From Planoprotostelium fungivorum (lineage: Eukaryota > Evosea > Variosea > Cavosteliida > Cavosteliaceae), in NCBI GenBank assembly GCA_003024175.1, contig MDYQ01000009.1, forward strand, positions 1 through 64,000: DNA of 64,000 nt, read 5' to 3'. Numbering within the stretch: the first letter of the stretch is position 1; each line of letters begins with the position of its first letter. Of this stretch, positions 5,474 to 62,803 are shown in pieces. The position numbers and the translations under genes are program-made. The notes under the pieces are model-generated. The model was not told the origin of the DNA and did not search any database. It saw only the letters and a program-made list of their open reading frames with translations.

Positions 5474-6666
5474 ATGGGGAAGGGAGTTACACCGAAGAAG
5501 TTGGTCATTCCAACGACACTCCTCATCACATTATTGCTGACTTGGTGGAGTTATTCAGCCGCTCTCAGTCGTGCATATCTGGATATGGAGCGTCTGACAG
5601 ACGATCTCAGACAAGTGTGTATATTCGGATCCATTTGAAGGTATCCTCACGTAACGGAAGGCGAAAGCTCAACTGAGGACGGGTGTTGTGTCCATCATTA
5701 GACAACCTGGAGAGACCACGTACGGTGCTGTCAGCATCCCTGTTATTCCCACTGATTTAGCGGGGAAGACGATCAAACTTCCCTCGAAGGTCTCTAGATT
5801 ATGGTGATTGGATTACATACATCATCGAAATTGTGACATCGCAGAGTGTTTCTGTTTGTGATGACTAACGACCCGAAAAGGCTCGATGTGGGAGCTCACA
5901 GAGAATCCATGATGTGTAGGCCCGCTCTTCTAGAGCAAGACGATCTCGGTGAATCGTCACATCATGATGAAAACTCATCGTCCCAGCCGTCATTGCCTTC
6001 GAACCTCTCTACGATAACTGGGGTCATCTCAACATCAAGAACCATCACGAGAGATTGTTCTCATTCCCCGCTGCCGTCTCTCCCATCGAAGGATATCAAG
6101 CTTTTCGTCGTGCTGGTACCGACATGTGTTCGTCTCTCAAAGGTGACGATCATCTCCTCTGATATCATCGTTCACATTCTCATTCCATCTCAGGAGTCAA
6201 CCCGGAGGCCATCAGAAAGGACTGGCCGGGAGGTTGCACGGAGACTTCTCTCACTTACGAAGTGCCCACTGTCCGTTTAGAGACCATCATCGAGATGGTG
6301 CCATCGGACATTGCCATCGAGTTCCTCAAAGTCGACGCACAAGGATCTGATTTAGACGTCATCAAGTCTGCCGGTATGTTCTCTCCTCTCTTCTCATCAT
6401 CTCATCTTCGATCAGGTAAGCTTCTGTCCAGAATCAGCACCATCGTCGTGGAGGTGCAGCTCCTACGTCCTCTCTATGCAGAGTCCGCCACAGAGCAAGA
6501 CTTTATCGATTACTTCAAAATCCACGGTTTCAAACACACACAGACCAAGATACAAAATTTGGAGAAGACAGAGGCCAACATGTTGTTTGTCAACAGCAAG
6601 ATGGTGGAGCCAAAGAAGGGAAGCCTACCTGTCGACCAGATCTTCAGGGATATTGGAAAGGATTAA
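5474..6666 (+). CDS. FkbM-family methyltransferase with N-terminal membrane anchor
   Basis: The ATG at 5474 opens MGKGVTPKKLVIP followed by a hydrophobic stretch (residues about 12-31), a likely type II signal anchor. After splicing, a SAM-binding motif WLDVGAHRES appears, then IAFEPLYDNW, CSSLK, RLETIIEMV and FLKVDAQGSDLDVIKSAG, all hallmarks of the FkbM domain. The intron before GCTCGATGTGGG runs from a donor after TTATG to ...CCGAAAAG (about 78 nt), which yields KVSRLWLDVGAH. FkbM enzymes O-methylate sugars or polyketides; with a signal anchor this one may act on glycans in the Golgi lumen (inference). The acceptor substrate is unknown. Confidence 0.85.
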
Positions 6667-6772
6667 AGCGTCAGAGTGTTTTGTCTTCATCCAGCATGAT
6701 GAAGAATCATCGCTCTTCTAATATTCTATTCTGACGCCAGCGATTGTCGTTCAGCTAACAGAATTTCCTTCG

Positions 6773-7611
6773 GTGAATCGTGCAGACCCCACCCCTTTCA
6801 TTTTGAACTTATTATACAACTTCGTCAATACCACGCAAGTTTATAACACAGACGAAGGTGTCAAGACGTTCATCCCATTAGGTAGAATTCACTTCGTCAC
6901 TACTAATCGTCTGATCGTTACGCCAGAGAATAACCCTGAGGTCCTCTCTCAGTTGGCTGAAAGTCTGGGAATCAGAGACTTACTGTTTCAAGATGTCTAC
7001 AGTCTTGACGCTGAGCTGCTCTCCAGTATCCAGCGACCTGTCTATGCTCTCATCTTCATCTCTCCAGGCGTAGTCTATCGCAGACGGAGGAATGCAGAGT
7101 TTCCTGCTCCTGCGGAATTGCCTCTATATGATCAGCACGGAGACGATCCCATCATGTGGTTCAGACAGACTATCCAACACTCGTGTGGTCTGATGTCTCT
7201 CATCCATTCTGTCAGCAACGGTCCCGCTCGACGCCACGTCCTGCCTGACTCCCTCCTCGGTCGCCTCCTCCATCAGGCCACACCTCTCAAGCCCGCCGAA
7301 AGAGCTCGCGTACTCTATGATTCTGAAGAGCTCGCGAGAGCACATCAATCAGCCGCCAGATGTGGTGCGACGACTCCACCATCCGACGCAGATGGACACT
7401 TCATCACGTTTGTTAGAGGAAATGATGGTCATCTGTGGAGTTAGAAGGAGGATGGAAGGGTCCCATCGATCGAGGACAGCTTTCAGAAGATGAAGACGTG
7501 CTCAGTGAGAAGGCTCTACGTCTGGGACTGAGACACTTTCTGGACAGAGCTAACGAAGACAATGGATTCAGTCTGGTGGCTGTATCACCCCGAAATGAAA
7601 TGAACGGATAG
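6773..7611 (+). CDS. Ubiquitin carboxyl-terminal hydrolase, UCH family (peptidase C12), with apparent one-base deletion
   Basis: The protein contains KTFIPLENNPEVLSQLAESLG, DVYSLDAELL, RPVYALIFISP, the catalytic RQTIQHSCG (Gln and Cys) and DGHFITFV (His). It then expects LWELEGGWKGPI, but one G is missing after TGTGG at 7438, so the frame stops at 7442-7444 and resumes in another frame to the TAG at 7609. No GT-AG intron repairs this. The base missing from a G run suggests a sequencing or assembly error, though a real lesion is possible. The usual catalytic Asp is Glu here (ELEG). One intron lies at about 6882-6928. No in-frame ATG was found; the start coordinate marks only the open frame, and homology begins near 6860. 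Confidence 0.8.
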
Positions 7612-7809
7612 AGAGCTAAATTTCGGGTCGATGAATTCTCTCGAAATCGAAATTTTATTCACATTTTATTGTCGGCAAGGCGAGCGCATTGTGCAATAAA
7701 GAGGCTGGTGAGCACGTATTGTACTGTTAGAAGGGCGATGCAAGAGCCAGGCTGGCTTCGTGACCCAGATATAGCGTGACAGGACTGAAACTCCGGGGCG
7801 GGTTTATAT

Positions 7810-7970
7810 CTCTTCCTGTTTCTGCAGAAAGAGGAAAGAGGAGAGGAACTTTATACTGCATTTGCTCTGTCCTCCAAGAGTCTTCGTCCTCGCATGAGGG
7901 CGGAACACTGCCGGACGACAGAGTAGGTGCAGTATAGAACAACTTCCTCTCCTTTTCGAGACTGAAAGAG
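7810..7970. repeat. Foldback element, copy 1 of a hairpin family (possible structured RNA or mini-MITE)
   Basis: The core stem pairs 7851-7875 with 7913-7937 around a 37-nt loop. All positions pair, counting G-U, except one internal C/C mismatch. Outside the core, AGGAGAGGAA (7839-7848) pairs perfectly with 7944-7953, and 7810-7822 pairs at 11 of 13 positions with 7958-7970. A related hairpin with the same C/C mismatch lies at 62715-62794. Every stem difference between the two copies keeps pairing. It lies about 200 bp downstream of the UCH stop. Strand and transcription are unknown. Confidence 0.65.
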
Positions 7971-10238: not shown

Positions 10239-11491
10239 ATCTTGAGCGGGTAAAAAGAGGCAGAAGATAGGTGATCTGATCGTCACCATCACATCATGAC
10301 GACGGTGATCTCGAGGTCTATTGCTAAAGAATGTGTGGTCGTCTTCGCGTCCAAACTGGTCCCAGATCACGTTAGCTGAGCTGAATTCTATTCTAACGAA
10401 CACGTGATTCGGTTTTTCCGGTTGGTAGTCAAAAGGTGCATTGAGAATGGATCACTTCTCTCCCGGCTTCTGGAATATGCATGACAAAAAAATTAGTGAT
10501 CCAAATGCATGGACACCAACCAGAAAAACCAAATCACGTGTTCGGATTGCACCCAAAAAAGGTGAAATTGAGAGACAGACCAGAACCTGTGACAAATGTA
10601 ACTGGCCTGGAATAAAACCGAGTCAGGTGGTGGAGAGGTTCTCGTAATGCTCCAGCAGACTTCGTAACTGCTCCAATCGATCTAAGACTATCTCACAATC
10701 GAACAGATCTAGTGTGACAATCCCACTACATCGAGGATGACGTCATCAACACGAGAGGCTCAAGGCGCAGAGTAAAAGATTTGATAGCAACCCGTAGCTC
10801 ATTTATGACCCACGACCGACTTATAGCATGTAACACATATTAAGAAATAATATAATACTCTTAAGTGTGCTACAGCTGTAAACCGGCCATTGCATCATCA
10901 CATCCGGCTGTCAGATGTGAAAGATGATCTGCAGATTCAATCTGTTGAACTTCCCTGAATAGGATGATCCTCTTCGACGCTTGGGAATCTGCGAGATCAT
11001 TTCTAAATCACACAAGAGAGAGAAGAAGCATGGACAGCGAGCAGGAGATCCTGAGCAGACGCCTGAGAAAGGCCACACCATTCCGCTTCGAGACGACGAC
11101 TAGCCTGCAAGAGAGAGTCGCCATCGTCTTTCCCTCTTCCCACCCACTTTTTGGAGAGAAGAAGCGAGTGATGGATCTTCCATGATTGGACACCTCTACG
11201 TGCCCATGGTATCGAATAAGACACGTTGCGACCAGATGAGCTTCACACTTTGGAACGGAAACCGGCTGGCCCATCTAGAACGAAACGGCTATACATAAAT
11301 TGAATATACGCTGTAAGCTGCTCTGTTTTTAGAAGATCAACTTGTGAAATAACTCCCGCATTGAACCAGTTCACGTCTTGTTCTGTACGTTCACAGTCAC
11401 TCTATTGGCTGCGAAAATGAAATGTTTCAAATCTTCTACAACGAAAGCGGAAGAATCCACATCACAGACGTCGCCAGGGACATAGTTGAGG
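10239..11491. other. Intergenic region with a MITE-like foldback
   Basis: About 1.25 kb between the Zn2Cys6 gene and TRAPPC8. It contains the foldback at 10397-10544 and a TGACGTCA core near 10740. A 51-codon frame from the ATG at 11030 is open but has no recognisable similarity, and I do not call it a gene. The end of the interval is the TRAPPC8 5' flank. Confidence 0.55.
10397..10544 (+). mobile_element. MITE-like foldback transposon, copy A
   Basis: Terminal inverted repeats of 30 bp (10397-10426 and 10515-10544) match at 28 of 30 positions; both begin CGAACACGTGATT. The 148-bp interior is shared, in opposite orientation, with 30550-30675. It encodes no transposase. I could not define a target-site duplication. 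An open frame crossing it (MDHFSPGFWNMHD...) is partly preserved in the other copy, but there it carries amino-acid changes and a stop, so it is not treated as coding. Confidence 0.7.
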
Positions 11492-24273: not shown

Positions 24274-27200
24274 ATGATGGACGTCAAGCTACTGGGTATA
24301 GTCTTTCTGCTACTGAGCCTCGGCTGTGCTGAGAAGAGGAAGACTCTGTCCGATCGACAAGGACTACCTAAGGGATGGAGGCAGGGAGTAGAAGCTGACG
24401 CTTCACACCCATTCACCTTTACCGTTCACCTCAAGTGAGATGGCACGGTAATTACGTTTTGATGACGTCGATTAGGCATCAAAACTTGGATGTTCTTGAC
24501 GACATCTTTTGGAAAGTGTCAGACCCTCAGCACACAGACTACGGAAAGTTCCTCTCTTCGGACCAGGTGACCTTCGTGATACACAACCACATTTCTGATG
24601 GAGCAAGGTCGACTCCCTCATTCGACCTGATGCCACGTCTTTCGATTCCGTTATTGCTTGGCTGAACGAAAACAACGTCACGTCTCAATCATTTAAGATT
24701 GGCAACGCCTACGTGAGAGTTAACACGAACACTGCCACCGCCTCTCGAATGTTTCAAACTCGTCTCACCTGGTATCACAGCTCAAAGAGGTCCACCGTCA
24801 GGTGACATCATCCTCTATCACCACCCTCCATCATACTGAACGACTTCTTACAGGAGTACTGAAGAGACGAGTCTTCCCGCTCACTTGTCCTCTCACGTCG
24901 AGCTCGTCACCGGTCTCAATGAATTCCACCCACCGGCTCGCATCACGTCACATCGCCGCAAGAGATCTTCGGGCTCTTCCTCACCCTACACTGCGCCCTA
25001 CTCCGCCTACGCATCAACACCATCGGCTCTCCGAACTACATACAACGTGAGCGTCATCGCGTTGTGATGCGATAATCACAAAAAATCAGATACAGCACAC
25101 TTCGGGCACGAACTCGTCTACAACGCAGGGCGTCATGGGATTTCAAGACGTATACGAACCTACGGCGCTGTCGGTACGTAACATACGTACGGTCGACGCT
25201 GACATCTGATCAGGCATTCGAAAAAGCTAACGGCCTTCCCACAATTTCCCCCATCAACGTTCCCAGCCTGACGTGCCGTGAGGTTTATATGAATGAAACC
25301 ATCACGTGACCTCCGTACAGCTTCTACTTGCGATAAGACGGAGAGCAACTTGGATGTCCAATACATAACTGGTGTAGGATCTGGCATACAAACTTATTTC
25401 ATCTCGTCTGAGGACAAAAACAATGACGAGTTCATCCTGGAAGGATTAGAAGTCAACTTACCCAACGCACCTGTGACACCTCAGGTGATCATCTCATCTC
25501 GATCACCATCATTGTCTATGTGATGATCACGATCTTCGTCCATCAGTGGGGATGTGTGACGAGAGATAGATATTGAGTATCAGCTATGGAATCGGCGAGA
25601 CTGTCATCTGCGATGGAGCCTTCCAGCTCTGCGGCACCACAACAGCCACGGCCACCGCATCGTGAGACAGATCATCCGACGAAATTTCATCTTACGTACG
25701 CAGATATCGCAGCCGCAGTGATACACTCTTCCAGAAGTTGGGTGCCCAAGGGGTCACCATACTCGTCGCATCCGGAGGTGATGACGTCATCACACATCAT
25801 CACTTCGTACTGACTCGTTGTAGACAACGGAGCTCAAGGAGATTCCGGCGTCGGACTGTGCCCAGCCAATACCACAGTGGTGCGTGCGATCTCTTGATGA
25901 CGTGTGATGACGTCATCGCAGTACTGCTTGGCCGGTGGATGCACCTACACGTCGACTCTGTGTCCCACGGTTGAAGTGAAATCTTCGAATTATGGAAATT
26001 ACATCTGGCCCACCATCGGAAAGAATGATCCTCTGTCATCTGTGCAGGTGACACATCTATCCTCATCCTCTATGAGCGACATACCTTCGAACACGTCAGA
26101 TGATGACTGCGATGGATGATGATGATCTGATGATGAATAGAATCTATACACCACGTTCGCTTCAGATAACTCGGCTTGCAATGTTGCCATCGACCAAGAC
26201 ACAGACGGAGTGAGAGCCTACAAATCGTCTCATCGCTCATCATCTCGACAGAACTACCACCTCTATTCCGAATGTGCTTGCAGCCAGCTCGTGTACAACG
26301 CATACAACATCGGAAACGGTTACGGTTCTGCCACGTTCGCGCAGTACAAGGTTGCAACTGCCGACCGATCTCAATACTTCAGCAACGGCTGGCCGGGCAC
26401 TTCACCTTACGTCACATCGTGAGGCGTGAATGTGGATGAGATTTCGACTTACGCATCCCAGAGTTGGAGCCACTCTAGTCTACGCTGACAACACCGAGGT
26501 GGGTGATGATCGTACACTGAAATTTGATCGAAATTTCAGACGACCTGCTCTTCCATTGGAGGATCTGGTATCTCCAGCGAGGGTGGATTTTCCACCGTCT
26601 ACACTCAGCCATCTTATCAATCCACCGTCGTGAATAACTATCTGAACAACCACGCACCGACCAACAATGGCTTGTACACAAAGACGGGCAGAGTGAGCTA
26701 ATAAGAGGAGAATCTTATCTAAATGGATGATAGGGGTATCCAGACATCTCTTTCTCCGGGCACAACTATCCCATCTACACGGGTTGTACTTCGACTTCCA
26801 CGTCATCATGGTGAGACGAGAAGCCTTCGTGACTTCATCTCACGTCATCAGCACCCAGACGAGTGTGGATGGTACGAGTGCTTCCACTCCGATTTTGGGT
26901 GGCATGATAGCACTCATCAACGATCAGCTGATCACGGCCGGAAAATCGACTGTCGGTATGTGATCGATCACCATCATCATCACCATCCTCATCTTGTCTC
27001 ACACTGTCTCAGGTTTCTTGAATCCCATCCTCTATCAAGCTTACTCTCAGAACGTCTCCATCTTCAGAGACATCACGACCGGAGACAACAAGTGCTCCGA
27101 AGCTTACTGCTGCCAGTACGGTTTCCCAGCAGGTGAAGACTCTCTCTCTCCCTCTTCTCATCCTTGTAGCTCCAGGGTGGGACCCTGCGACCGGGCTCGG

Positions 27201-30549: not shown

Positions 30550-30675
30550 CAATTGATTTGGTTTTATGCATTTGGAACACTAATTTTGTTGTCGTGCATA
30601 TTCCAGTAGTCGGGAGAGAAGTGATCCATTCTCAATGCACCATTTGACTACCAACCGGAAAAACCGATCAACTTG
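30550..30675 (-). mobile_element. MITE-like foldback transposon, copy B (inverted relative to copy A)
   Basis: Reverse complement of 30567-30668 matches 10406-10510 closely, with about ten substitutions and small gaps over 100 bp. The ends, CAATTGATTTGGTTTT and the reverse complement of the right end CAAGTTGATCGGTTTT, are inverted repeats. One arm lacks about 14 bp present in copy A. It lies in the 5' flank of the aspartic protease gene, 47 bp upstream of its start codon. No target-site duplication was identified. Confidence 0.68.
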
Positions 30676-60143: not shown

Positions 60144-62699
60144 ATGAGTGGCTTCCAAGGAGGACCCTCCCTTGAGATCTTTTCAACTCAGGGAAAGAAT
60201 CCCGTCGAGCATTGGAAGGTGCCATCTGTCGGGGTTAAGAAAGACTTTGATAAGAATCTGAAAGGCTACGTATATCTCTGCGAGGGAAATGGATACATGC
60301 AGTATCCCAAAGATGAGAAGAAATTAGGTGATGTGATGATGTGATTTGTTTGTAAGTTGAACATCGGCAGCCTCACTGACACACCCGATTCTCGTGTTAC
60401 AGGTTTTGTTGAGCAGACAACCATTTTCGGTCGAATTGAGGTGAGCCGTCACATCACCCCAAAGATGTAACATTTCAACAGTCTCTGCGATAAATCCAAC
60501 AACAAGAGGAGGATCCACCTGTCCACTGTCTTCACAGAATCATCATCGACTCCACTGCATGCCAAAGTTCCACTCGGTTTAGCCGTCGTGGGAGAGGTGA
60601 GGCGTCATTTCTTCTTCGGTTGATCTTCGGTGACCCGATCACAGTGGATCAATCTGTCCATCGACATGGATGATCTGGTGCAATATTATTTCAAGGACCA
60701 ATTCTTCCGTAATCTAGAGATGGTAGTTCTGCGGCAGAACTTTCAGCTTCGAAGAGCTTTCACACTGAAATCCCACGCACCCGACACGACAGACGACTAT
60801 CGTGAGATCATGCGCGTCAAAGATAAACCTTAATCCCACAGAAAATCTGGGCGTACAACCACCACCCTCTCGTGGTGAGATGCCAAAGACGGCTGCGCCA
60901 CCTGTCGGTATCTATTTCTGCAATCAACACTTCAACTCCCTCAAGCTGGAAGCTGCCATCCGTGATGTCAGAGATCTCACACCCAGGTCCGGTGGTGATA
61001 CAGAGGGTAAACCTAAAGTCCTATCATCGACTATCGCTGGAGACGATGGTCCGATGCACATCGCTTTCGGTAGGAGAGCACCGTTACCGGGCGATCGACC
61101 GTTAACTACCGGAACGCCACCGATGACCGCCGGAGGTGTCAGTCGACCAGTCACAAAGGTGAAGTGTGATGAAGGTTTCAGATGACATGACATCGTACAG
61201 CGAGGTGCGTCAATAGCACCTTCTCCCAGCCCTGGGACACCCACACTCCCAAAGAAGAAGATTACAGCTCCACTTCGTAGCTCGAGCGGAAAGATCACAC
61301 CTCAACCGGACGTATTAGATCTATCCGTCAACGGATCCATTCAATCTGCATCGTCTGTCAAAAATTTCATCACACCATCGAAAATTGCCCCCAGACTCAC
61401 TGTGGAAGTCAATATGAATCCCACCCTCGATGCCGAGTGAGTTTGATCCACCTTCACCTCTTAACGATCTCGTCAGCTACACTCGATATTCTCCCGGCTT
61501 TGGTAAGCAAGGGAGTACAGACGATGAATCAGAAGAGGAAGAAGATGTTCATTACGAGGAAGAGTCAAACGTCACGTTCTCTTCTGTCGTTTTAAAGTCA
61601 TCGGAGGAAAAGTCGAATCGTTTCATGAAGAATTACGATTCCGTGTCCGATTCGATGATCAGTTTCTCGGCACCACCGAGAGGTGACTCCATTCAGTCTT
61701 CATTGGATAGCGAAAGAAGTTCTCTTCATGGTGTGTACATGGAATCATAGTCATCATGATCACACATCATCTTGTCATCTTACAGTCAACGCCGTCGTCT
61801 CATTGTCATCACATGATCGTCATCACGTGATCCGTCGCACCATCTTCTCACCGTCCTCCGTGACTTCGATGATAACGATTTTCCAGACTTTGCTCGGTTG
61901 GAAGACGAGATCGCGATGGTGCCCGTCCGTACGATGAGCATCGAGAGAGAATACTACAGTCACGAGAGCCGGCCACGCACCCCATCACGAACACCTTCTC
62001 CTCGTATCTCTAAATCCATGCTCAAGTCCACAGAGTGAGCACCACTCACGTTACGAACCCCTTATATCTCTCACAGGAAGGACTTTGACATCGACGAGGT
62101 CTTATCGAGGGCACCAGAGAGGAGATCTTTCAAAGGTGTAGAGATCAGTTTAGAAGATCCTCTGTACCGTGGGAGGGCTGTGGGAAAAATGGGGCGCAGA
62201 GATATAGAAGACGACTGGTCCGAAGATTCAGAACAGGAGACGACTTATCTACCGCCAGAGGAAGATGATTATGTGGCTGAGATACATCATCATGGATGAC
62301 TTCTTGTACAATTCGGTTATCATTCTTCTCTTACGCCGAGTTAACTCTCACGGTCGATAGAAACGTTAGTAGATATCTTGATGCTCGTATTCTTCTTATC
62401 TCGCCGGCTGGCAGACGGGTCCAACTGTATACAGAACAACAAATGCAGGCTGGCAGACCAACGTTTATATCTCTTCAGGTCAGCAGATTGCTGAGCAGAA
62501 CGTCGTGTCATCAGCTGATGACAGTGTCTCGACTCTATTTCACGTCTTCCCCCGCTCGATCTGTGGATGTGACACGCTTTACGCATTCGAAGTAGAAGGA
62601 AGACGGTGGTTGTGTGAATCTAATATCGATATATCGCGGCAGTTGAAAGTTCCGAGATTATTATATCTGCAGCGAACCAAAGACAAAAACAAACAATAA
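60144..62699 (+). CDS. CFAP20-domain (CFAP20DC-like) protein with long disordered tail
   Basis: The N-terminus reads MSGFQGGPSLEIFSTQGKNP, VEHWKVPSVGVKKDFDK and LKGYVYLCEGNGYMQYPKDE. After introns: KKLGFVEQTTIFGRIE, KRRIHLSTVFTESSSTPLHA and VPLGLAVVGEWINLSIDM, then FQLRRAFTLKSHAP. This is the CFAP20 fold, in the CFAP20DC (C3orf67) variant. About 450 further residues are low complexity, acidic and Ser-rich (TDDESEEEEDVHYEEES). CFAP20 itself is an inner-junction protein of axonemal doublets; CFAP20DC is poorly known. The last exons (after about 62290, YAELTLTVDRNVSRYL) are assigned by frame only and could be a separate gene. Confidence 0.78.
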
Positions 62700-62708
62700 T
62701 CGAACCCC

Positions 62709-62803
62709 GGCCCTCTATACTACGCTTACTCTGTCCTCCCAAGGCCATGAGCTGAAAAGTACGGTCATAGGACGACAGAGTAGGTGTAGTATAGTCCAGA
62801 GCC
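62709..62803. repeat. Hairpin element, copy 2 of the family at 7810-7970
   Basis: The core stem pairs 62715-62739 with 62770-62794 around a 30-nt loop, with one conserved internal C/C mismatch. It is extended by GGCCCT (62709-62714) against AGAGCC (62798-62803) with one mismatch. It begins 16 bp after the CFAP20DC-like stop codon and may lie in that gene's 3' UTR. The right arm differs from copy 1 at one position, the left arm at five, and all changes keep pairing. Confidence 0.68.

Follow-up and report, generated by a model that had tools for sequence, protein, structure and literature searches.

A candidate microRNA gene family of five hairpins with a nearly invariant 3p arm and a predicted near-perfect site in an IPT/TIG-domain gene

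MicroRNAs (miRNAs) of ichthyosporeans, namely Sphaeroforma arctica and others, were reportedly described by Brate et al. in 2018. Ichthyosporeans encode miRNA genes together with homologues of Drosha and Pasha, according to a review (PMC8061703). Data on S. arctica from 2023 were gathered to learn whether miRNAs play a developmental role, as that paper states (PMC11109566). Since this is the aim of the data, the targets of ichthyosporean miRNAs appear still to be worked out, and the titles and abstract openings of the ichthyosporean miRNA literature describe no target. Here, we analyzed hairpins seen in a 64,000-nucleotide stretch of genomic DNA (hereafter, the window) and searched the whole genome (36.9 Mb in 471 contigs) for their relatives. 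We put at roughly 84% the probability that the five hairpins found, designated A–E, form a family of miRNA genes, each with its own transcript, and that their 3p strand silences a gene with an IPT/TIG domain on contig C235, probably by cleavage. The assignment to a known kind of miRNA gene is well supported, and the target predicted for the family is unusually specific.

An earlier note on the window had described two related hairpins at 7851–7937 and 62715–62794, and both were recovered at these positions (copies A and B; Table 1). The family is larger than the two copies counted there. Searches with 20 nt of the right arm and of the left arm separately, allowing up to 3 mismatches, each recovered all of A–E, which gives a family of at least five, as counts obtained in this way are lower bounds. 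A stricter 24-nt search returned four of the hairpins, and a two-arm pattern search returned three. As the note had reported, the right arms of A and B were identical at 24 of 25 positions and their left arms differed at five positions, at each of which pairing was kept: one G-C pair became A-U by change on both sides, two differences set U-G against C-G, one set A-U against G-U, and one set G-U against A-U. The C/C mismatch that the note had placed in both stems was indeed present in A and B, and also in C, but not in the other two of the five copies: D has a G-C pair there, and E sets A against C.

Table 1. Location of the hairpins and related features. Positions are those of the window unless a contig or another locus is named.
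Feature	Position	Strand	Remark
GTTTATATCTCTTC upstream element of A	7802–7815	+	48 nt upstream of hairpin A; candidate for a core promoter
Basal stem of A, left half	7836–7848	+	13 bp, below the conserved hairpin; fold with 25-nt flanks
Copy A, precursor-miRNA-like hairpin	7850–7938	+	89 nt; fold z −9.39
Copy A left (5p) arm	7850–7875	+	predicted star
Copy A right (3p) arm	7913–7938	+	predicted guide side; core nearly invariant across A–E
Basal stem of A, right half	7944–7956	+	fold with 25-nt flanks
GTTTATATCTCTTC upstream element of B	62463–62476	+	251 nt before hairpin B; within an 18-nt stretch identical upstream of C
TATATC	62662–62667	+	another TATA-like word, some 50 nt upstream of hairpin B; read from the sequence
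Copy B, precursor-miRNA-like hairpin	62714–62795	+	82 nt; fold z −6.84
Copy B left (5p) arm	62714–62739	+	predicted star
Copy B right (3p) arm	62770–62795	+	contains GACAGAGUAGGUGUAGUAUAG, which pairs with the candidate target over 21 nt
Copy C	contig C208
Copy D	contig C387
Copy E	contig C12
MITE-like inverted-repeat family	10386–10556	−	window copy
MITE-like inverted-repeat family	30566–30667		partial
MITE-like inverted-repeat family	C208 (L012 8621–8791)
MITE-like inverted-repeat family	L053 116–175

None of 200 dinucleotide shuffles folded as well as the + strand of A or of B, and the same held for all five copies (z −6.8 to −9.4). The minus strands of A and B likewise outdid all 200 shuffles, with z-scores of −6.00 and −4.21. 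The minus strand folds less well because G-U pairs turn into A/C mismatches; the most likely orientation of the RNA is therefore that of the + strand. The remaining copies, C, D, and E, likewise folded better in their own orientation than on the opposite strand. Annotation of a miRNA gene calls for at least 16 arm pairs without large bulges, a loop of at least 8 nt, and conservation that falls from the mature arm to the star arm to the loop. In A–E, 25, 24, 25, 25, and 24 of the 26 ungapped arm positions were paired, respectively, and the loop between the 26-nt arms was 30–40 nt long and partly self-paired.

The five copies were aligned as five rows over a 26-pair stem (130 cells), and the stem was compared with shuffled alignments; because the rows are paralogues, the counts of shuffles are not to be read as probabilities. 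Paired cells made up 94.6% of the 130, a level reached by 0 of 500 shuffles. Fourteen of the stem pairs were invariant, four varied on one side, seven were double changes, and one departed only through unpaired cells. Seven pairs kept pairing through a double change, whereas shuffles averaged 3.4 such pairs and 1 of 500 reached seven; one of the seven is the edge pair (columns 1 and 93), which may be chance. Slid registers gave at most one such pair. Double-change cells numbered 11 (shuffled, 3.9), and neither this number nor the covariation score was reached in 500 shuffles, whereas the count of further pair types gave no separation (13 versus 12.0; 160 of 500 shuffles did as well). An alignment of the first four copies alone gave four double changes (3 of 500 shuffles). 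The excess of double-change pairs over shuffles and slid registers supports the earlier proposal that selection acts on RNA structure.

Conservation was unevenly spread along the hairpin. Mean pairwise identity among the five paralogues was 97.8% in the right core and 86.1% in the left core, 85.8% and 73.8% over the whole right and left arms, and 34.8% in the loop, so that the order among these paralogues is mature arm, star arm, loop. The flanks were at background level (24.5% and 25.5%), and within the arms variation was greatest at the outermost stem pairs. When about 2.5 kb around each copy were compared by BLASTN (same strand, E ≤0.05), the hairpins aligned, as did one 18-nt upstream stretch shared by B and C; nothing else did.

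This distribution bears on the possibility that the arms are the terminal inverted repeats of a non-autonomous DNA element, a MITE, which the earlier note had kept as the main alternative. The inverted-repeat shape and the dispersal of the copies over four contigs suit a MITE. However, only five copies were found (a lower bound), rather than the large set, uniform in arms and spacer and with conserved terminal repeats, that is expected of a MITE, and repeats flanking the hairpins were no longer than at random positions, with none of the five copies above chance (fractions 0.23–0.70). A transposon would conserve the outer stem pairs, whereas here the outer ends vary and the inner arm is conserved; the loop and flanks are unrelated between copies, and compensatory changes and strand-specific G-U pairs are likewise not what a MITE predicts. 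The same window provides a contrast in the form of a MITE-like family (Table 1) that is 94–97% identical through arms and spacer alike. Its window copy pairs at 26 of 26 arm positions on the minus strand, two of its four copies are partial, and the L053 piece is 90% identical over 60 nt. For the stricter stem scan, a reversed-sequence control is invalid, since reversal keeps pairing. Because of the five copies, the lack of excess flanking repeats, the variable outermost pairs, and the background-level flanks, we consider a MITE origin of A–E very unlikely; the pattern that the earlier note had named as the mark of an ordinary MITE did not appear.

None of the five copies overlapped a coding sequence predicted by a simple gene finder, whose predictions leave UTRs aside. 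An Rfam search that covered the whole window (A and B) and the loci of C and D gave no match at these four copies, and no tRNA was detected within the window. The sole Rfam match in the C208 locus L012 was a tRNA away from the hairpins. The right arm had no exact match in viral and prokaryotic contigs. The predicted gene preceding copy A (5861–7611, + strand) combines FkbM-type methyltransferase and ubiquitin C-terminal hydrolase domains and possibly represents two genes fused by the gene finder. Low-complexity stretches rich in TGATGATG/ATCATC, some of them palindromic, recur in the window (for example, at 25778–25919).

The 14-mer GTTTATATCTCTTC has five exact matches in the 36.9 Mb, three of which precede A, B, and C by 48, 251, and 70 nt. 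The fourth, on C450, falls within what looks by eye like a coding frame; around the fifth, on C90, a stem scan of locus L028 revealed no hairpin of comparable quality. By our own arithmetic, chance would hardly place three of five genomic matches no more than 260 nt away from five hairpins in the correct orientation (<1e-12), even for a word picked after its sharing had been seen. In D and E, the best similar words were at shuffle level (10 of 14 positions at −54 and 9 of 14 at −181; shuffle fractions 0.14 and 0.61). GTTTATATCTCTTC is probably part of a small TATA-like promoter of A–C. A U6-type promoter was considered for the hairpins and rejected, as the U6 genes on C74 lie without GTTTATATCTCTTC. 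Contig C74 carries two tandem U6 genes 3 nt apart (L031 1501–1600 and 1604–1703), the second of which has diverged.

Both the covariation and the common upstream element would suit any structured RNA gene, including an RNA of snRNA or snoRNA type or a protein-bound, cis-acting UTR hairpin that is not cut into a miRNA. We regard such an RNA as improbable. The sequence of one arm is under the strongest selection, with drift via G-U pairs in the other and an unconstrained loop; the lack of an Rfam match at A–D and of overlap with predicted coding sequence also counts against it. Furthermore, a whole-genome scan with the invariant arm showed complementarity to one exon across 18–21 nt.

Outside the hairpins, the 3p core had one match with 2 mismatches in 20 (C235:14285–14304, minus strand) and five more with 3. 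The C235 site is complementary to the 3p core in the sense orientation: it lies in an open frame on the + strand, which forms the last of six exons in a spliced frame. The gene model, which rests on the TIG match and on hand-set splice sites, is without a defined start, and the gene finder called the gene only when pressed, not in ordinary runs. The exon matched the IPT/TIG domain (PF01833) with E-values of 3.9e-6 in the exon frame and 2.4e-5 in the spliced piece; a PDB search yielded no relative of the TIG gene or of its neighbour. By reading, GACAGAGUAGGUGUAGUAUAG of B and C pairs with the site through 20 Watson-Crick pairs and one G:U, and the 3p arm of both copies contains an 18-nt exact complement to the exon. 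Copy A has one internal mismatch to the site, and D and E pair with it over 19 nt. An exact 18-mer is expected by chance about 0.001 times per word, or 0.01 times for ten words.

Taken as a whole, the 3p scan at up to 3 mismatches was noise: it returned 14 matches, eight of them hairpin arms, versus 38 in the control. With the same setting, the 5p arm gave 12 matches versus 14. Outside the hairpins, no 5p site had fewer than 3 mismatches in 20, and the four sites with 3 were at control level. Seven 3p matches outside A–D were folded; they comprised hairpin E, the C235 site, and five three-mismatch matches, which did not form, by eye, a hairpin of the A–E family. The C235 gene, probably a regulatory one, is thus a candidate target, against which it counts that this is a single site from a whole-genome scan.

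Similarity to the C235 exon extends over 18 nt in both arms, with an exact complement in the 3p arm of copies B and C and agreement at 16 of 18 positions in the 5p arm of copy C, as would be expected if the hairpins arose by inverted duplication of the TIG-domain gene and served as a source of siRNA rather than being a conserved miRNA family. This origin is the least likely of the alternatives, and we give it hardly any weight: the likeness to the gene stops, by eye, after about 21 nt, whereas a recent inverted duplication would be expected to continue, and the same arm is kept by five copies whose loops and flanks have diverged.

The genome also encodes the proteins that a miRNA pathway calls for, since an Argonaute, a Dicer, a Drosha-like protein, and a Pasha/DGCR8-like protein were all predicted. 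Piwi-domain matches were found on three contigs, C39, C208, and C92, those on C208 and C92 having identical scores. The predicted C39 Argonaute has ArgoL1, PAZ, and Piwi domains, with ArgoN below the cut-off. The best PDB match of its Piwi part was argonaute-2 (E 4.9e-32; best Piwi protein, 1.1e-24), and the alignment keeps E, D, and H, which we take to be the catalytic residues of AGO2. The Dicer on C173 has a helicase, a dimerisation domain, and two RNase III domains, with the platform domain below the cut-off. A protein on C375 also contains two RNase III domains, and the best PDB matches of its pieces were Drosha: 1.3e-10 for the first piece (best Dicer, 3.5e-5) and 4.8e-14 for the other (single-domain RNase III, 4.5e-8; Dicer, 0.043). 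No helicase was seen ahead of these domains in the one upstream piece scanned, which matched no family.

A search for double-stranded RNA-binding domains (dsRBDs) revealed one Pasha-like gene in two near-identical copies, on C192 and C140. Its dsRBD matched DGCR8 best in the PDB (8.1e-9), followed by adenosine deaminase (2.1e-4), and its WW-like piece also matched DGCR8 best (7.6e-5), with three of four matches so named; the fourth, 4e5r, is presumably frog DGCR8. This set of proteins suggests that the host is a holozoan protist, probably an ichthyosporean. The presence of these animal-type miRNA proteins, together with the structure of A–E, supports the suggestion in the earlier note of a precursor-miRNA-like hairpin, as far as structure and type of element can be judged from sequence.

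Several further features of the assembly were observed. The Argonaute fragments (C208 L038 and C92 L040) and the Pasha-like gene (C192 L064 and C140 L065) occur on paired contigs with identical scores, as if these were unmerged haplotypes or duplicates. Introns and gene content mark the genome as eukaryotic, and the predicted introns are short (median 47 nt; allowed lengths 32–140). The sole match to an 18S pattern (L034, C346:5951) has short, very AT-rich spacers, compared with 48% G+C in the window, and perhaps comes from another organism.

From the hairpins, their strand, conservation, and covariation, their position outside predicted coding sequence, the protein genes, and the complementary site, we infer the promoter role, transcription, processing, strand choice, and silencing that make up the following model. 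Each of A–E would be transcribed independently, A–C probably from the small TATA-like promoter that carries GTTTATATCTCTTC. The transcript would fold as a hairpin, from which RNase III proteins, in this case the Drosha/Pasha-like pair and Dicer, would cut a duplex of about 21–22 bp. Argonaute would then retain the invariant right-arm strand, and this 3p strand would pair almost perfectly with the last exon of the C235 IPT/TIG gene, leading to silencing, probably through cleavage. Two general expectations bear on this model. The end-stability rule and the preference for certain 5′ nucleotides would favour the 5p strand of A–C, with its AU-rich 5′ end, which speaks against the choice of 3p. Drosha substrates are expected to have a lower stem of about 11–13 bp below the mature duplex; with 25-nt flanks, the closing flank pairs numbered 14 in A, 5 in B, 8 in C, 14 (interrupted) in D, and 0 in E (8 with 15-nt flanks). 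A lower stem of this length is clear only in A because the conserved part sits near the base of the hairpin.

The invariant arm, one outstanding complementary site, and Drosha- and Pasha-like genes together yield a specific, testable miRNA–target pair. Taking the host as a unicellular relative of animals, we tentatively propose, with the balance tilted slightly against it, that Drosha and Pasha, acting as an animal-type Microprocessor, make a five-gene miRNA family, and that this family silences a putative IPT/TIG-domain transcription factor through near-perfect, plant-like pairing in the coding region. If this were true, near-perfect slicing of regulatory genes would predate animals, with seed-based targeting arising later, within the animals. 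The pair formed by the miRNA family and the C235 site would allow the pre-animal mode of targeting to be addressed directly.

Among described systems, ichthyosporean miRNAs resemble A–E in being encoded, in animal relatives, by genomes with Drosha and Pasha homologues. A–E differ from them, as described, in forming a five-member paralogous family with an upstream element in three members and a near-perfect site in a coding region; as the comparison is by description, the family may equal a published one. A 15-nt core of the right arm, in RNA or DNA letters, was not found in the searchable literature. MITEs share with A–E the inverted repeat, the short spacer, and the dispersed copies; A–E differ from them in copy number, in their variable ends and diverged loop, and in having no target-site duplication above chance. 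Metazoan miRNAs are similar in their Drosha- and DGCR8-like proteins and in forming paralogous families with one invariant arm, whereas the predicted target of A–E pairs over nearly the full length rather than through the seed alone, and the duplex lies near the base of the hairpin. Near-full complementarity to the target, as predicted for A–E, is characteristic of plant and cnidarian miRNAs; in contrast to those systems, the processing proteins encoded in this genome are of the animal type.
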